From the NCBI RefSeq assembly GCF_000758165.1, contig NZ_JNUP01000065.1:271359-335358 (forward strand): a stretch of 64,000 bases of DNA, read 5' to 3'. The stretch comes from Spirochaeta lutea (lineage in GTDB: Bacteria; Spirochaetota; Spirochaetia; DSM-27196; Salinispiraceae). The notes beneath the pieces were generated by a model. The model was not told the origin of the DNA. It searched no databases and worked only from the letters and a program-made list of their open reading frames with translations. Made by a program: the position numbers and the translations under genes. Shown here one piece after another: positions 22,319-53,988 of this stretch; position 1 is the stretch's first letter, and the number at the start of each line of letters is the position of its first letter.

Positions 22319-23140
22319 TTAGACAAAAAGAGCCAGACTTAAGGCCATGACCGCCATACCACCCACCAGGCCGTAGATCGCAATATGGTGCTCGCCATAT
22401 TTTTCTGCAGTGGGAAGCAACTCGTCCAAGGAAATGAACACCATAATGCCCGCCACGCCCGCAAAGAGCAGCCCGAAAACCAGGTCGTTCATAAAGGGAA
22501 GGAGCACAAAATACCCCAAGGCTGCACCTATCGGCTCTGCCAGACCGGAGAGGAAGGACAGACCGAAGGCCTTCCTTCTACTCTTGGTAGCATAGTAAAT
22601 CGGGACGGAAACCGCGATACCCTCGGGAATATTGTGGATGGCAATGGCTACGGCAATCCCGATGCCCAGGGCGGGATCCTCCAATGCCCCGATAAAGGTG
22701 GCAAGGCCCTCGGGAAAGTTATGGATGGCGATGGCCAGGGCGGAAAATACGCCCATCCTCAGCAGGGCCGCGTGGCTGTGGGGATGGGGCTGTCCCTGAG
22801 GCTCAGCCTCCCCCATTTGACGGGGTTCGTGGGGATTTTCGAAACTGGGTACCAGCTTATCGATGATAGCGATGAGGGCGATTCCCCCGAAAAAGGCCAG
22901 GGTGGTATACCAATACCCGGTTTTCGGTCCCACGACCTCAGCTAGGGAGGTGTACGCCTTGGCGAATATCTCCACCAGGGAGACATAAATCATAACCCCG
23001 GCTGAAAAACCCAACGCTCCCGCCAGGAACCGTGGGTTGGTTTGTTTTGTAAAAAACGCCAGGGTGCTGCCGATGCCGGTGGCTAATCCGGCAAATAGGG
23101 TAAGCCCGAAGGCAAATAGAATATTCGTTGTAGTTATCAT
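22319..23140 (-). CDS. ZIP-family metal transporter (ZupT-like)
   Basis: About 273 residues, eight membrane helices, imports zinc or other divalent metals. The two metal-site helices read [14 protein letters not shown] and [15 protein letters not shown], and a His-rich loop ([12 protein letters not shown]) lies between helices 3 and 4. Start placed at [12 protein letters not shown]; a longer reading upstream would have to run through the promoter. No Shine-Dalgarno is present, and the mRNA is probably leaderless. Confidence 0.93.
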
Positions 23141-23146
23141 ACCAAA

Positions 23147-23175
23147 AATATATTTTGAGTACTCAAAAAAATCAA
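23147..23175 (-). promoter_or_regulatory. ZIP transporter promoter with 16-bp operator palindrome
   Basis: Minus strand TTGATT (23170-23175), 17-base spacer, TATATT (23147-23152), then TTTGGT and the ATG. The spacer contains the perfect palindrome TTTTGAGTACTCAAAA (23153-23168). A metal-sensing repressor binding there would block RNA polymerase; the regulator is not identified. Confidence 0.75.
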
Positions 23176-23268
23176 GACGATGAATGCACATTCCTACTAA
23201 AATATTTCTTACCCCGTCACCCTACCTTTCTGCTCCAGCCTGTAATGGCGAGGAGCTAACGGGGTGAC

Positions 23269-33755: not shown

Positions 33756-34430
33756 TTAGGGTGATTTCAAGGCAAGGTACACCGTCAGGGTCAGGCCCAG
33801 ATAGGCAAGGTTGTAGAAAAAGTCCTCCAGGGGAATGCTTCCCACCCGGATTCCGAGCATTGCCCGGGAATTATAGCGGATGGTGGGCAGGCTGGTGTAG
33901 ATTCCGTTGACCAGGGAGAAGGCCAGAAACGAGAAGAGGAAGAACAGCCAGAAGCTTGATGAGGCAAAGAGCCCGGGAACAAGAATCAAGGAAACCAGGG
34001 CAAACAAGGCTACCGACGACATGGCCAGCAGGGTGTATCCCCGACGACGGAATAGGAAGGCCAGGGCCAAAAAGGGCGGGATTGCCAGGGCCTGGGTCCA
34101 CCAGAGCTCCGGCCGGAGGGTTCCCATGCCGAAATAGGCCTCTACCACCTCAAAAATGAAGAGGGTTGCGTAGGGAACACAGAGAAAAAACAGCCACTCC
34201 CCCGGGGGAAGGTCGAGCAGCCGTCGTGTTCCCACAAATTCATCGTTGAACTGCCAATGTCCTGCCCGGGTTACCAGCATATCCCAGATGATATACAGGG
34301 CGCCGATGATTCCCGTGGCTCCCAAGACCGGGAGCAGGTACTGAATGAAGTTCACCTTCTGATCAAAGCTCAAAGCCAGGGGGCCGGCAATCACTACCAG
34401 GGCGATAAGGGTGTAGCTGTGTTTCTTCAC
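33756..34430 (-). CDS. Lycopene cyclase of the fused CrtYc-CrtYd type
   Basis: 224 residues, six to seven membrane helices in two related halves. Conserved cyclase motifs: WDMLVTRAGHWQFN..VG with PPGEWLFFLCVP in the first half, YNSRAMLGIRVGSIPLEDFFYN in the second. Such enzymes cyclise lycopene to carotenes. GTG start behind AGGAG. No other carotenoid gene is in the window, and the neighbours are unrelated (convergent with the MBL gene, divergent from purK). Consistent with a pigmented spirochaete. Confidence 0.82.
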   Translation of the reverse strand: MKKHSYTLIALVVIAGPLALSFDQKVNFIQYLLPVLGATGIIGALYIIWDMLVTRAGHWQFNDEFVGTRRLLDLPPGEWLFFLCVPYATLFIFEVVEAYFGMGTLRPELWWTQALAIPPFLALAFLFRRRGYTLLAMSSVALFALVSLILVPGLFASSSFWLFFLFSFLAFSLVNGIYTSLPTIRYNSRAMLGIRVGSIPLEDFFYNLAYLGLTLTVYLALKSP

Positions 34431-48863: not shown

Positions 48864-48904
48864 CCCCGTTTTCCAAAATTGCGAAACAATTTTGGAAAAC
48901 GGGG
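48864..48904. repeat. Perfect 18-bp inverted repeat (hairpin)
   Basis: CCCCGTTTTCCAAAATTG (48864-48881), loop CGAAA, and the exact complement (48887-48904). No T run on either strand, so not a simple terminator. Confidence 0.9.
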
Positions 48905-49060
48905 CGGCGGGCAAGTCCGCCAGCTGTCCTGGGTTGCTTCCCAACTACGGACAACTGGCGGGTATCCACAATGTCTCGGTCAAGCCTGGGGCTTGCCCAG
49001 GCCGCTGCGGATACCTGCCAGCCCCGGTATCTGGCGTACCGTACAGCCTTGTGCACACAA
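48905..49060. other. Structured intergenic region with a decayed MITE end
   Basis: Adjoins the perfect hairpin. CCGCCAGCTGTCC (from 48918) pairs with GGACAACTGGCGG (from 48951) with one mismatch, and CCTGGGGCTTGCCCAGG is a small hairpin near 48985-49001. Positions 49027-49060 resemble the right end of the MITE-like elements (TATCTGGCGTA...CAGCCTT-TGC-CAC). No gene. Confidence 0.55.
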
Positions 49061-49106
49061 CCTAGGGCAAGGAAGATCATGGTGGTATAGAGGGAGGAGA
49101 CAGGGG

Positions 49107-50480
49107 ATGAATGATCTTCAGTACCGTTTAGATAATTCCGCAAAAATCTGGCCGGCTCTTCTCTCGCCGCGATACACCACCTGGTTCCGCTTATTTGCTG
49201 TTTTTACCGAGCCGGTACTGTATGAGGCAGCCAGAGGTGCGGTTTCTAAGGCCTTTAATGATCATCCCTACCTTGCTGTGAGGCTGAAACCCGGATTGTT
49301 CTGGTACCATCTGGCGCCCCTTAAGCATCCCGTGGATCTGCAACCCGACAATAGTCCACCCTGCATGACCTATGAGGGATCCAGGAAAACCGGTCCCCTG
49401 GTTCGGGTGTATGCCTACCGGAAAACCCTGGCTGTCGAAGCCAGCCACATGGTAACCGACGGTACCGGTCTAAAGGTGTTCTTCACCACCCTCCTGGCCG
49501 AGTACACCCGGCTCCGCCGGGAACTCCTCGCGGCCGGACCGGAGGTCCGGGAATCCCTTGTGCAACACTGCACCAAGCCCCTGCCCATTCCCGATCCGAC
49601 CCATCACCGTCCAGAAACCTGGGAAGACAGCTATGTGACCCACGGTATTGTGGATCCCCCGGGCGCCCGGCACCGGTCCATGCCGAAACCCGATGTCCCA
49701 AGCAAGGCCCTGCATTTTCCCCTGGCTCTGCTTCCCCGGGGCCAGTATCGGATATCACTAATCCGGTACAGCGCCGCGGCAATCCGGGGCCGGGCAAAAC
49801 AGTACGGCATCAGCGTAGGCGAATACCTTGAATCCCTGGTTATGCTAGGCTTCCAGCGGGCAGCCCGGGAAGCGGAGCAGTGGCCGGGGATGCTGCCCGG
49901 GAGGAGCCGCCTCTCCAGGCCGATTCGGTTTCTGATTCCCGTGGATTTACGGAGGCTCTATAATTCCCGGACCATGCGGAACTTTTTCATCGGACTGCCT
50001 GTGGAGATTGACCCCAGGCTCGGGGATTTTACCCTGGAAGAGATCATCCGCCGGGTGCACCATGCCCAACGGGCGGAGCTGGATGCCAAGTACCTGCGTA
50101 AGCAACTCGCCCGGAACGCCCGGAGTCAGCAATCCCTGATGCTGCGACTGGTGCCCCTCTGGCTCAAGGATATTGTGCTCCGAATGGTATACCGAAGCAT
50201 CGGTGATGTTCGGTACACCGGAAGCTTCAGTAATCTTGGCCGGGTTAGTGAAACCGTACCCGGTCTGGCCTGGGTGGGATTCGTGCCGCCCCCCAGTCCG
50301 GTGAATCCTATTAATGTGACGGCTATTACCTACGGGGATGAGCTCTGTCTGGGGTTTGGGAAGATGACCCGGGTGGGCAGGATTGAGCATCAGGTAGTCC
50401 GGGCCTTTGCCGAGCAGGGGCTGAGGGGCCGTCTGATGACGAATTTTGAGGGATCGACCCTCTGGGGAGGTTTACAATGA
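49107..50480 (+). CDS. Acyltransferase of the alcohol-acetyltransferase / condensation-domain type
   Basis: 457 residues. SHMVTDGTGLKVF resembles the HxxxDG active site of CoA-dependent acyltransferases; the C-terminal half fits the same fold. Start at MNDLQYRLD with AGGGAGGAGA upstream. Substrates unknown. The stop overlaps the start of a DUF6320-like membrane protein (ATGA), a pairing I recall from other bacteria, which suggests lipid or envelope acylation. Confidence 0.78.
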   Translation: MNDLQYRLDNSAKIWPALLSPRYTTWFRLFAVFTEPVLYEAARGAVSKAFNDHPYLAVRLKPGLFWYHLAPLKHPVDLQPDNSPPCMTYEGSRKTGPLVRVYAYRKTLAVEASHMVTDGTGLKVFFTTLLAEYTRLRRELLAAGPEVRESLVQHCTKPLPIPDPTHHRPETWEDSYVTHGIVDPPGARHRSMPKPDVPSKALHFPLALLPRGQYRISLIRYSAAAIRGRAKQYGISVGEYLESLVMLGFQRAAREAEQWPGMLPGRSRLSRPIRFLIPVDLRRLYNSRTMRNFFIGLPVEIDPRLGDFTLEEIIRRVHHAQRAELDAKYLRKQLARNARSQQSLMLRLVPLWLKDIVLRMVYRSIGDVRYTGSFSNLGRVSETVPGLAWVGFVPPPSPVNPINVTAITYGDELCLGFGKMTRVGRIEHQVVRAFAEQGLRGRLMTNFEGSTLWGGLQ

Positions 50481-51328
50481 ACGCCGGACCGGAACACGAC
50501 CGAGATAGCCATCACACAAGAAGCGAGGGTGATTATTCTGAATCCCTCCAAAGGACGAAGGAGCAAGAAAGACCCCTCGGCATCCGAGGATGCGGCAACT
50601 GCGGTATTCAGATTTTACAGCCCGGAGAATTCTGCCCCCTATGCGGCGGGCCGTTGGAGGACACGTCAGAGGATGTGAACGCTCCCCTTCAGTCTCCCCG
50701 GGAACCCCTCAGGGAAGACCGGGTTTTTCCCAATCCCTCGGGCCAGCAGGATTTTTCCCTGGGACGGAGTCTGGTCTCCCGTATCCCCTACGCCCTGGTG
50801 GTTTGGGGAATCTTGCTCATCCCTGCCCTGGTGGTGCTGATCATCGACGGACAGATGACCGGGATGTGGTCCTGGTCCCGGTACGTCCATTTGTCCCTGG
50901 GGTTCTTAGCCCTGGGGGTGGGAGGCTCAATCTTGGCAGGTTCCAGGGCTTGGGTTCATATTGTAGTCTGGTATGCCGCGTGTACCGGGTTTGTCCTGCT
51001 TTTAGACGGCTTAACACCCCTTCACGGATGGGCCCGGGGGATTGCCGTGCCGGTAATCTCCATGGCGTTTGCCGGTATCGGCCTACTATCCATCCTGGTA
51101 CGGGCCCTCCATCCCGGGGGGCTTGGGGTACTCAGCGGGTTATCCGTCATCCTTAGTCTGTTTTGCATCGGGGTTGAGCTCCAGCTCTATCTCTACTTTC
51201 AGCTCGCCGCCGCCCTGGTCTGGTCTCCCATCGTTGCTGCGGTGCTGCTCCCCCTGGGGCTGATCCTGGGGATAATCCGACGGTTGATGCATAATAGTTC
51301 CCGGGTACAGCGGTTCTTCCACTGGTGA
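50477..51328 (+). CDS. Zinc-ribbon membrane protein, DUF6320-like
   Basis: 283 residues. A short zinc ribbon (CGNCGIQILQPGEFCPLCGG, about residues 36-55) is followed by a polar linker and six membrane helices. Its start overlaps the acyltransferase stop. The N-terminus contains EGDYSES, coded by a degenerate short-repeat copy (near 50524). Function unknown, probably works with the acyltransferase. Confidence 0.75.
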   Translation: MNAGPEHDRDSHHTRSEGDYSESLQRTKEQERPLGIRGCGNCGIQILQPGEFCPLCGGPLEDTSEDVNAPLQSPREPLREDRVFPNPSGQQDFSLGRSLVSRIPYALVVWGILLIPALVVLIIDGQMTGMWSWSRYVHLSLGFLALGVGGSILAGSRAWVHIVVWYAACTGFVLLLDGLTPLHGWARGIAVPVISMAFAGIGLLSILVRALHPGGLGVLSGLSVILSLFCIGVELQLYLYFQLAAALVWSPIVAAVLLPLGLILGIIRRLMHNSSRVQRFFHW

Positions 51329-51429: not shown

Positions 51430-52395
51430 CTAGGCAGTCAGATGATTTGCCAGCTCGACGGTATGCTGGGAATCCCGGGCCAGGCCATCGGCTCCCAGGG
51501 TCTTCCAGAGGTCGGGATCCAGGGCAAAGGCCCGACCGCCCAGGATAATCCGGGGACAATCGTCTCCCCGGAGGTGGGAGCGGAGAAAACCGATAATATT
51601 GGCTGTGCTGTCGATATGGTGGGGCATGGTAACACTTATTCCCAGCACATGGGGGTTGTAGGAATGGATTGCCTTCAGGGTTTCCTGGGAGGGCAGGTAG
51701 GTTCCCAGGAAAAATGTATCCCAGCCGTCCATGTACAAGAAGTCAGAGGCCATTTGCAATCCGATATCGTGGAGTTCTCCGCTGGCCGCCATGGCAAGGA
51801 AGCGCCGGTTTTTTTTAGGGGCCTGATTAACCCTGGTCCGCAGGTTGGCCATAATATTCCGGATCGTCTGACTCGCCAGATGTTCGGTATACACATCCAC
51901 CTGGCCCTGTTCCCAGAGATCTCCGATCCTATGCAGTACCGGTTCCAGGATATGGCGGTAGGTTAATTCGATGGTCTGTCTATCCTGGGCGAATTGCAGG
52001 ACCCCGTCGGCCCCCTCCTGGGGTTGCCCGTGGATAATGGAACTCAGGAGCAGCTCCGAGAGTCGTTGGGAGTGCAGTTCCTCCGATTCCTTTAGGGGCC
52101 TATCAGGTTCCCGGCTCAACCGGGCGCTATCGTCCCTACCGCCCGGATAGATCCGGGGGATGGTCTCGGTGGCGGGGTACGGGGGCGTGGGGTTCATGTT
52201 CCTGCCCAGGAGATAGTCCAGGCTCACAGAAAAATAGTCGGCGATTTTTACCAGCATCTCGCTGTCGGGAAATCTGGCGCCCTGTTCGTAGTTGGCCACT
52301 GTGGTTTGCCCGATCCCGAGAACATCTCCCAGTTCGCGTTGGGTGAGACCCTTCTTCTTCCGTAGATTACGCAGATTTTCTGAAAATATAGTCAT
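51430..52395 (-). CDS. XRE-type regulator with a CarH-like B12-binding domain
   Basis: 321 residues. An XRE/Cro helix-turn-helix (about 8-62, LTQRELGDVLGIGQTTVANYEQG) replaces the MerR domain found in CarH. After a linker comes a B12-binding helical bundle with the W-x9-EH motif of CarH photoreceptors (W161, E171, H172), then a Rossmann B12 domain with the base-off ligand ELHDIG (H209). CarH uses adenosylcobalamin to sense light and represses carotenoid genes in the dark; the same here is inference. The residue after W161 is Glu, where CarH has a His used in its light state. Neighbour: divergent glycosyltransferase gene. Confidence 0.82.
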   Translation of the reverse strand: MTIFSENLRNLRKKKGLTQRELGDVLGIGQTTVANYEQGARFPDSEMLVKIADYFSVSLDYLLGRNMNPTPPYPATETIPRIYPGGRDDSARLSREPDRPLKESEELHSQRLSELLLSSIIHGQPQEGADGVLQFAQDRQTIELTYRHILEPVLHRIGDLWEQGQVDVYTEHLASQTIRNIMANLRTRVNQAPKKNRRFLAMAASGELHDIGLQMASDFLYMDGWDTFFLGTYLPSQETLKAIHSYNPHVLGISVTMPHHIDSTANIIGFLRSHLRGDDCPRIILGGRAFALDPDLWKTLGADGLARDSQHTVELANHLTA

Positions 52396-52426
52396 CGGTT
52401 ACTGTTCCCTATTCCTCAGGGACAAA

Positions 52427-52446
52427 ATAACACATAATGTTGTTAT
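52427..52446. promoter_or_regulatory. Candidate operator of the XRE-B12 regulator
   Basis: ATAACA (52427-52432) and TGTTAT (52441-52446) form an inverted repeat with an 8-base spacer, just downstream of a minus-strand TATACT -10. Position favours autoregulation and possible control of the divergent gene at 52537. Confidence 0.5.
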
Positions 52447-52489
52447 AGTATAGCAGCACATCACCCTTCATCACAAAGTGAGTTGTATG

Positions 52490-52536: not shown

Positions 52537-53988
52537 ATGCAGGTGTTTGGAAATAAGCTCTCACAACGTGCTGTGCGTAGTGCCCGACGGAAGGCAGCCC
52601 GGATGGCAAGGCGGTACGGCTACACTTCCGACGACCGTGTAAACATCATGGAGGGGCAGCCCAAGGCCCAGCCTCCCCTCTTGGGAATTCATCCTCTTGT
52701 TCCTGCGCCGGGGGTTACCGAACCCCTGAAAATCGACAAGGGGATTGTCCTGGGAACCATCCGCATGGGATTCGGCCATTACCGTATGGCCCTGGCCCTG
52801 GCCTCTGCAGCCCACTCCCGGGGCCTGATACCCTATTGGCTTGACTTTTTGTCCTTTCCTGAGAGCCCGGTTTCAAAGATCATCGACTATCTGGACGGTC
52901 TCTACCGCTTCGGATCGAGATTGAGCCAGCGCTGGCCGCTTTTTAATAACCTGGTTTGGGAGCGTCTGACCTCGGAATTCGGCCGACCCATAACGGGCAC
53001 CGCCCGGTATCTGGCCCTGGCTGAGATTCTGGCCCAGGTACCCAAGGGACTGTCCCCTGATACTCCCTACGTGGCAACCCATCCCTGGACAGCCCAGGCT
53101 GCAGTCGCTGCCGGACTCACCAATGTCGTGAATATTGTCCCTGACAACATGCCCCTGGCCTTCCATCTGGCTGAGGGAGCAGTACACACCGTTCAAACCG
53201 CCTCAGGCTTCTTGGGGTACAGGACCCTCCGAGAGATGGGCATTACCAGGAATGAGGTGATGAAACCTATGTCCCAAGGAAATATCGTGTACACCGGCCA
53301 CTACGTAGACCACGAGCTGGTGGCAAACCTAGAAGGAGATTGCGCACGCCGTCTTGACCGTATCCATTCCGGGGCACCCCGGCGGGTTCTCATGACCATA
53401 GGCGGGGCCGGAGCACAACTGTCCAAGTTTACCGCCATCATACGCCATCTGCGTAGACGCATCCTGGACCGGAGCGTAACGGTGCTGGTAAATCTGGGGG
53501 ACCACTACAGTCGATGGGCGGAGCTTAAACAAAATCTCACCCGGATGCGGCTTCCCTTTCAACTCTGGGATGATGATTGGGCGGGGTTCCAGGACTTCGT
53601 CGCCCGGCTTCAGAGCGAGACCCTCGGGGGCATTTTTGTAATTTTGCACCGGGATACCTTTCCGGCGGTGTATTCCACCAATCTTTTAATGCGGGAAAGC
53701 GATGTACTAATTACAAAACCATCGGAGCTGTCCTTCTACCCGGTTCCGAAGCTCTTTATTCAGCGGGTAGGCAAGCATGAGGCCATGGGCGCTATTCATA
53801 GCTCGGAGATCGGTGACGGATCCCTGGAGACCAGCAGGATGCCTCATGTGCTACAAATTCTCGATGTGCTGCTTGACGATACGGATCTACTATCCCTCTA
53901 CATCGACCGTCTTTTGGGGAATAAAAAAGCGGGAGTGTACGACGGCGCTTACCGCGCTATTGATCTGGTTCTATCCCGGCGGCAGTGA
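52537..53988 (+). CDS. Glycosyltransferase-like protein (MGDG synthase/MurG-like fold)
   Basis: 483 residues. GIVLGTIRMGFGHYRMALALASAA resembles the nucleotide-sugar-synthase N-domain loop of MGDG synthases, and GGAGAQLSKF with a C-domain ending LLMRESDVLITKPSELSFYPVPK resembles the acceptor/donor half of GT28 enzymes. Likely makes a membrane glycolipid; I am not certain of the exact family. Start chosen by AGGAG seven bases before ATG. Divergent from the XRE-B12 regulator. Confidence 0.65.
   Translation: MQVFGNKLSQRAVRSARRKAARMARRYGYTSDDRVNIMEGQPKAQPPLLGIHPLVPAPGVTEPLKIDKGIVLGTIRMGFGHYRMALALASAAHSRGLIPYWLDFLSFPESPVSKIIDYLDGLYRFGSRLSQRWPLFNNLVWERLTSEFGRPITGTARYLALAEILAQVPKGLSPDTPYVATHPWTAQAAVAAGLTNVVNIVPDNMPLAFHLAEGAVHTVQTASGFLGYRTLREMGITRNEVMKPMSQGNIVYTGHYVDHELVANLEGDCARRLDRIHSGAPRRVLMTIGGAGAQLSKFTAIIRHLRRRILDRSVTVLVNLGDHYSRWAELKQNLTRMRLPFQLWDDDWAGFQDFVARLQSETLGGIFVILHRDTFPAVYSTNLLMRESDVLITKPSELSFYPVPKLFIQRVGKHEAMGAIHSSEIGDGSLETSRMPHVLQILDVLLDDTDLLSLYIDRLLGNKKAGVYDGAYRAIDLVLSRRQ

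Follow-up and report, generated by a model that had tools for sequence, protein, structure and literature searches.

The window, that is, the whole stretch of 64,000 nucleotides analyzed, carries on its minus strand a gene whose product joins an XRE (CI-type) helix-turn-helix to a light-type cobalamin-binding module, and a divergent gene for a GT-B-like protein lies beyond two operator-like sites (Table 1). Three Pfam domains were recognized in the protein, all well above cut-off: HTH_3, B12-binding_2 (residues 114–185, 3.5e-10) and B12-binding (residues 200–309, 1.9e-14); among them HTH_3/XRE is the only DNA-binding domain, with no MerR-type N-terminal domain in the Pfam search, and neither Pfam nor the AlphaFold2 (AF2) model, which hold XRE and B12 domains only, reveals a bilin-binding globin domain. 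The full light-responsive B12 signature, GxxW, EH, GxxH and GxxxP, which was experimentally validated on exemplars by Yu et al. (SignatureFinder; PMC11796333), is met by G158DLW161, E171H172, G206ELH209 and G231TYLP235, and W161, E171, H172, E207, H209 and G212 are invariant or nearly so across the relatives described below; the motifs W161-x9-E171-H172 and E207-x-H209-x-x-G, from which a sequence-only reading had proposed a CarH-like module, stand where they had been placed. In the XRE head, the recognition segment is Q30-T-T-V-A-N-Y-E37, in which Q30, T31, N35, Y36 and E37 are invariant in 46 sequences.

The AF2 model, built from 46 family members, has a mean pLDDT of 90, with a low-confidence linker at approximately residues 68–95, and its B12 part aligns to a photocobilin (Z 25.5), CtMerR (Z 22.5) and CarH (Z 20.4). 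By sequence, the B12 part is closest among solved structures to CtMerR (8JBS), photocobilins and CarH, and the head to an ICEBs1 XRE regulator and further XRE proteins; the NCBIfam CarH model matches with 58.6 bits (cut-off 400), and only in the CBD part. The genome encodes a PduO-type adenosyltransferase and only three proteins with B12-binding domains, namely, this one, one of MetH length and one radical-SAM-like, the last two being named by length and sequence appearance; no Rfam element, such as a cobalamin riboswitch, was found in the window at the gathering threshold. On its sequence and modeled fold, the protein is predicted to be a vitamin-B12 light sensor with a phage-repressor-type DNA-binding head, AdoCbl binding and light response being inferred.

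Table 1. Features of the XRE-B12 locus in the window and stand-alone B12-binding genes of other loci
Feature	Position	Strand	Details and basis
Gene for XRE (CI-type HTH) plus light-type cobalamin-binding module	51430..52395	-	321 aa, ATG start 52395; ORF, Pfam, AF2 model, family
XRE/CI-type helix-turn-helix, residues 8–62	52210..52374	-	Pfam HTH_3 1.4e-16
B12-binding_2 four-helix cap plus B12-binding Rossmann domain, residues 114–309	51469..52056	-	Pfam, structure matches
Putative adenosyl-capping motif G158-x-x-W161-x9-E171-H172	51880..51924	-	Residue 162 Glu, not His
Putative lower axial His motif G206-E-L-H209-D-I-G212	51760..51780	-	GxxxP next, residues 231–235
Operator 1, CACATAATGTT (minus strand AACATTATGTG)	52431..52441	.	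Centre 52436; 11-bp dyad; best site of the window
Operator 2, CACAAAGTGAG	52472..52482	.	Centre 52477; weaker copy; second-best site of the window
Predicted extended -10 (TG-T-TATTTT) of the XRE-B12 gene	52424..52432	-	Sequence and family consensus TGTGnTATWAT; overlaps operator 1; inference
Predicted extended -10 (TG-T-TATAGT) of the divergent DUF6937/DUF6938 gene	52441..52449	+	Sequence; abuts operator 1; inference
Divergent GT-B-like protein (DUF6937-DUF6938), probable local target	52537..53988	+	Pfam, predicted fold
Lycopene cyclase domain protein (PF18916)	33756..34430	-	Probably not part of the XRE-B12 unit
Stand-alone Trp-less B12-binding genes	L100:8126-8794, L101:8108-8770, L104:7049-7768, L108:8063-8755, L113:2374-3033	- (all)	

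The replacement of MerR by an XRE head on this module is not peculiar to one protein, since at least 53 proteins with the same architecture and motif were collected from Spirochaetota and Clostridia. Relatives occur within the same order of spirochaetes, and a scan of 84,980 species genomes added further Spirochaetota and many Clostridia, including Clostridium bowmanii, C. intestinale, C. tetanomorphum, Proteiniclasticum, Natronincola, Alkaliphilus and Anaeromonas; the full architecture, judged by the start of the profile match, is sporadic in the sample of the phylum (approximately 6 of 393 genomes). Wx9EH and [ED]xH are kept in all 53 collected proteins; the collection step itself demanded W-x9-[EQ]H, and two further candidates, the loci L137 and L146, escaped it. 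In a tree of the B12 part, the XRE proteins form a single clade (85/85; 84% of bootstrap trees), which suggests a single XRE-B12 fusion event followed by spread; the clade adjoins non-XRE CBDs of globin-type appearance, not Thermus CarH, with the reservation that the CarH branch is long and its placement unsure, and that CtMerR was not in the tree. The SignatureFinder network comprises 1,561 putative B12 photoreceptors, including unspecified HTH domains fused to light-type CBDs (PMC11796333), and some XRE-B12 members may already be in it; the text of that paper describes no XRE family, operator or regulon, and no account of these was found in the open literature, subscription papers being outside the search. 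Light-type B12 domains joined to HTH partners of unspecified kind are, thus, already known, and the XRE-B12 family is apparently undescribed.

A palindrome, a putative operator on sequence evidence alone, is conserved at the promoter of the XRE-B12 gene itself across the family. The form CACANNNTGTG occurs without mismatch before 10 of the 53 genes and with no more than one before 32, against 0.06–0.18 and 1.6–1.9, respectively, expected from shuffles and random segments; the operator common to the family can be written CACAWWWTGTG, and it overlaps extended -10 promoters, the right half of the longer consensus CACAWAWTGTGnTATWAT running into the extended -10 (TGnTATAAT). Two or more sites occur in 24 of the 53 promoters, no pairs being found in the shuffled set, and the 27 spacings between adjacent sites fall at 20, 30–31, 39–42, 49–50 and 60–61 bp, that is, at whole helical turns (Rayleigh p of 1e-9 for all spacings, 2e-6 for representatives and 0.0016 for distinct values only). 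In 814 kb around family genes, 58 sites of at least 14 bits were found, and approximately 50 of them lie at XRE-B12 promoters or at the adjoining divergent gene; a motif trained on Clostridia recovers the spirochaete XRE-B12 promoters (p 7e-25). The window fits this pattern, with operators 1 and 2 standing 41 bp apart centre to centre and ranking first and second in the 64 kb, also with the motif derived from clostridial sites alone. An ATAACA-N8-TGTTAT repeat had been noticed in this promoter; it is present exactly at 52427-52446, overlapping operator 1, and is the only exact copy in the genome, but the axis of the conserved 11-bp dyad lies half a base pair off and the second operator copy had been missed. 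As a bare 6+6 dyad the repeat would be weak evidence, and among its near-exact copies genome-wide the reversed control gave more matches (139 vs. 69 per strand); we prefer to read its halves as a pair of back-to-back extended -10 boxes on either side of operator 1, TGTTATTTT on the minus strand for the XRE-B12 gene and TGTTATAGT on the plus strand for its neighbor, so that one bound repressor could, by inference, close both divergent promoters.

The glycosyltransferase-like character ascribed to the divergent gene is supported by DUF6937/DUF6938 and a GT-B-like predicted fold. This gene shares the operator region with the XRE-B12 gene here and in G003 only, and it was rejected as a family-wide target, since it is present in several families of the order and the site accompanies it only where it diverges from an XRE-B12 gene. 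DUF6937-DUF6938 is a GT-B-like family of unknown function, and a second copy lies in the genome at G000:C60:20532-21209. Strong second operators elsewhere in the genome were also discarded, being inside genes or without a clear link to light. The lycopene cyclase gene pointed out earlier is real and lies at a distance of 17 kb, but the scan of the window showed no operator-like site near it, and it is probably irrelevant.

A look for the operator near carotenoid genes had been proposed, and sites do precede carotenoid and mevalonate operons, in this genome as one weak site. The carotenoid operon is on another contig (C3) and comprises, in order, HMG-CoA synthase, an FMN-dependent isomerase-like protein (IDI), a CrtI-type protein, CrtB, a second CrtI-type protein, a PF04240 carotenoid protein, a fatty-acid-desaturase-like protein and a polyprenyl (GGPP) synthase; the site ATATTACGAAGTGTAATAA lies 54 bp before the ATG of HMG-CoA synthase (centre L065:4248, ATG 4302) and is weak when taken alone (p 0.011, with TTAC/GTAA half-sites, under the Clostridia-trained motif, which was also used for the following values). 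Orthologues of HMG-CoA synthase in G003, G002 and G013/G006 also have upstream sites, that of G001 being weaker (p 0.11), and the promoters combined give a Fisher p of 1.6e-8, or 2.5e-6 once the G013 copy, a neighbor of an XRE-B12 gene, is omitted. The signal is weaker at crtB promoters (p 1.8e-4 over eight genomes), where two sites are found 48–50 bp apart in four genomes; the 814-kb set includes further sites before crtB (L092), HMG-CoA synthase (L093) and a fasciclin gene (L122). The photolyase gene of this genome has no operator site. The regulon was assessed by pattern searches and selected genome stretches only, not by an exhaustive whole-genome motif scan. The family operator before the regulator's own gene and before carotenoid genes suggests that light protection is switched on by the XRE-B12 regulator, and the HMG-CoA synthase–IDI–CrtI–CrtB operon is probably a target in this genome.

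The gene neighborhoods add to this picture. Phytoene synthase adjoins the XRE-B12 gene in six spirochaetes, and a CrtI-type desaturase occurs in three loci, adjacent in Alkaliphilus and Anaeromonas and beside crtB in L087, the operators in Anaeromonas lying in the intergenic region common to the CrtI-type and XRE-B12 genes. A class II-type photolyase (PF00875) is near the gene in six loci (L079, L100-L102, L112 and L114) and in L045, and its gene overlaps the XRE-B12 gene in the spirochaetes L045 and L112; approximately 0.2 would be expected by chance in this much DNA at our estimate of one photolyase per 3.5 Mb or so. Several of these loci are close relatives, and the independent lineages number approximately four for photolyase and three for crtB. 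Many clostridial copies, by contrast, diverge from MacB/FtsX exporters or chemotaxis genes, not light genes, and the regulon there is therefore wider or different.

Some other recurrent neighbors were recorded in these loci. A MacB/FtsX-type ABC exporter is divergent or adjacent in approximately a dozen Clostridia (L072, L074, L078, L088, L096, L146 and others). L088 also adjoins what appears from its sequence to be a FecCD-type transporter; transporters of this type are a class able to import B12. In some loci, a stand-alone B12-binding protein without the capping Trp (...GNEEMDIWKEH...) diverges from the XRE-B12 gene, with an operator-bearing intergenic region in common (Table 1), and might be a partner or an anti-repressor. 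Fasciclin-domain genes near the XRE-B12 gene (L122:7482-8987 and L103:6785-7900) have one to three family operators upstream. In L041 (9445-10506; G036), a B12-domain gene without the XRE head is near CrtI-type and lycopene-cyclase-like genes; its N-terminus is likely of globin type, and it may represent a carotenoid-linked photocobilin in a spirochaete.

The protein resembles several known systems without coinciding with any of them. With CarH or class I LitR (Thermus, Bacillus, Myxococcus) it shares the four-helix cap and Rossmann AdoCbl domain, Wx9EH, ExHxxG and the putative repressor logic, and the family shares the crtB/photolyase neighborhood, Thermus carH adjoining crtB and phr; the differences are the MerR winged helix of CarH in place of XRE, the His after the Trp in TtCarH that no family member has, the position of the CBD in the tree, and the operator, which in CarH consists of 11-bp direct repeats (PMC8156234), whereas the XRE-B12 palindromes are spaced by 30, 40, 49 or 60 bp. 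CtMerR (Chloracidobacterium, PDB 8JBS/8JBT), the top Foldseek and sequence match, is also without the His but has a MerR-type DNA-binding domain; the photocobilins SasPcob and AbDPcob share the CBD fold, and the CBDs beside the XRE clade look like theirs in being of globin type, but they carry the bilin/globin domain that XRE proteins do not. The DNA-binding head is that of CI/RstR/PezA-type XRE repressors of phages and mobile elements, which have other C-terminal sensor or dimerization domains.

We consider it probable that the protein is an AdoCbl-dependent, light-released repressor of itself and of carotenoid genes. The domains, motif conservation, predicted fold, common operator, helical phasing and presence of the operator before carotenoid genes of relatives are computed, whereas AdoCbl binding, oligomer change, dark repression and light release are inferred. 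In the dark, the protein would bind AdoCbl with His209 as the lower ligand and with Trp161 and Glu171/His172 capping the adenosyl group; the B12 modules would drive oligomerization, the XRE heads would hold CACAWWWTGTG palindromes over extended -10 promoters, and where at least two palindromes share a helical face, they would be gripped together. Light would break the Co–C bond and loosen the oligomer with no need for a bis-His state, CtMerR being the precedent, after which transcription would start; in this genome, the protein would control its own gene, its GT-B-like divergent neighbor and, probably, the operon headed by HMG-CoA synthase. We lean, only slightly, towards the broader proposal that the family is a distinct lineage of B12 photoreceptor-repressors, present across Spirochaetota and Clostridia that are mostly anaerobic, in which a photocobilin-side module drives a CI-type head, reads helically phased palindromes, releases without bis-His and gives strict anaerobes green-light control of photoprotection.

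An unlikely but not negligible alternative is a sensor of B12 level, whose DNA binding would respond to AdoCbl or a different cobalamin without light playing any part in the cell; AdoCbl being both ligand and chromophore, sequence alone cannot separate this from a light sensor, and the clostridial locus L088 does lie beside a FecCD-like importer. A family tied to B12 or methionine genes had been named as a pattern that would refute light sensing; no cobalamin-transport, cobalamin-synthesis or methionine family is in the top 25 of the Pfam tally of 120 near neighbors. Neighbors and operators point instead to carotenoid genes and photolyase, and the Trp-x9-Glu-His cap, kept in 53 of 53, belongs to the signature validated for light response (PMC11796333).

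One difficulty for the light-released repressor lies in the residue after the Trp. The doubt raised earlier that Glu162 would permit the bis-His light state of CarH is well founded, as the position is Glu in 41 of 53 relatives, otherwise Asp, Ser, Met, Gln or Ala, and His in none; judged from these residues, a bis-His state via residue 162 cannot form. By analogy, the missing His does not count against light sensing, because light still converts the tetramer of CtMerR, which has Arg at this position, into monomers (PMC11796333); the corresponding residues are Gln in SasPcob and Tyr in AbDPcob (PMC11796333), and SasPcob has no bis-His light state (PMC10979010). The TtCarH H132A variant, on the other hand, largely remains tetrameric in light (PMC10442372), which makes DNA release by XRE-type members a real open point; on this analogy, Glu162 in place of His132 would count against the light-release model, and release could fail or need another trigger. 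One variant of the model, which we hold to be improbable, makes the protein a light and oxygen (redox) sensor, where photolysis primes and oxidation of cobalt by O2 signals; CarH needs O2 for its final light state (PMC10442372), and many members are in anaerobes, in which the photoproduct would meet a different redox fate, but the CarH-type ligand switch cannot occur in the same way without the His upper ligand, and a redox site is without sequence evidence.

Very little credit is given to a B12-independent or degenerate regulator, similar to CarA or class II LitR and under the control of a partner, for example a second CBD protein, since all ligand-contact residues are kept and no such partner gene exists among the three B12-binding domains of this genome, even if CarA works without B12 (PMC8156234) and several clostridia have a Trp-less stand-alone CBD beside the XRE-B12 gene. 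That the palindrome is a chance feature and the protein acts elsewhere is hardly tenable, as AT-rich promoters often contain a lone 6+6 dyad, but a family-wide, helically phased operator is not explained in this way.

If the light-released repressor is true, it would bring a second DNA-binding architecture to B12 photoreception, and its operator code would allow targets to be predicted. The family makes it testable how light-type B12 domains without the upper-ligand His of CarH release DNA and whether strict anaerobes sense light through B12, and a small CI-type repressor with short palindromic operators would be an attractive green-light switch for laboratory use.

Two further observations concern other genes of the window. 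The ZIP transporter at 22319-23191 is similar to the one encoded after the XRE-B12 gene of Proteiniclasticum (L101:10019-10858), with only a weak site near its start (9.7 bits, 23145-23163). The gene pair at 48879-51328, acyltransferase-like by appearance (no Pfam match) and a zinc-ribbon membrane protein weakly similar to DUF6320, recurs approximately 7 kb from the XRE-B12 gene of G001 (L036:15544-17567).
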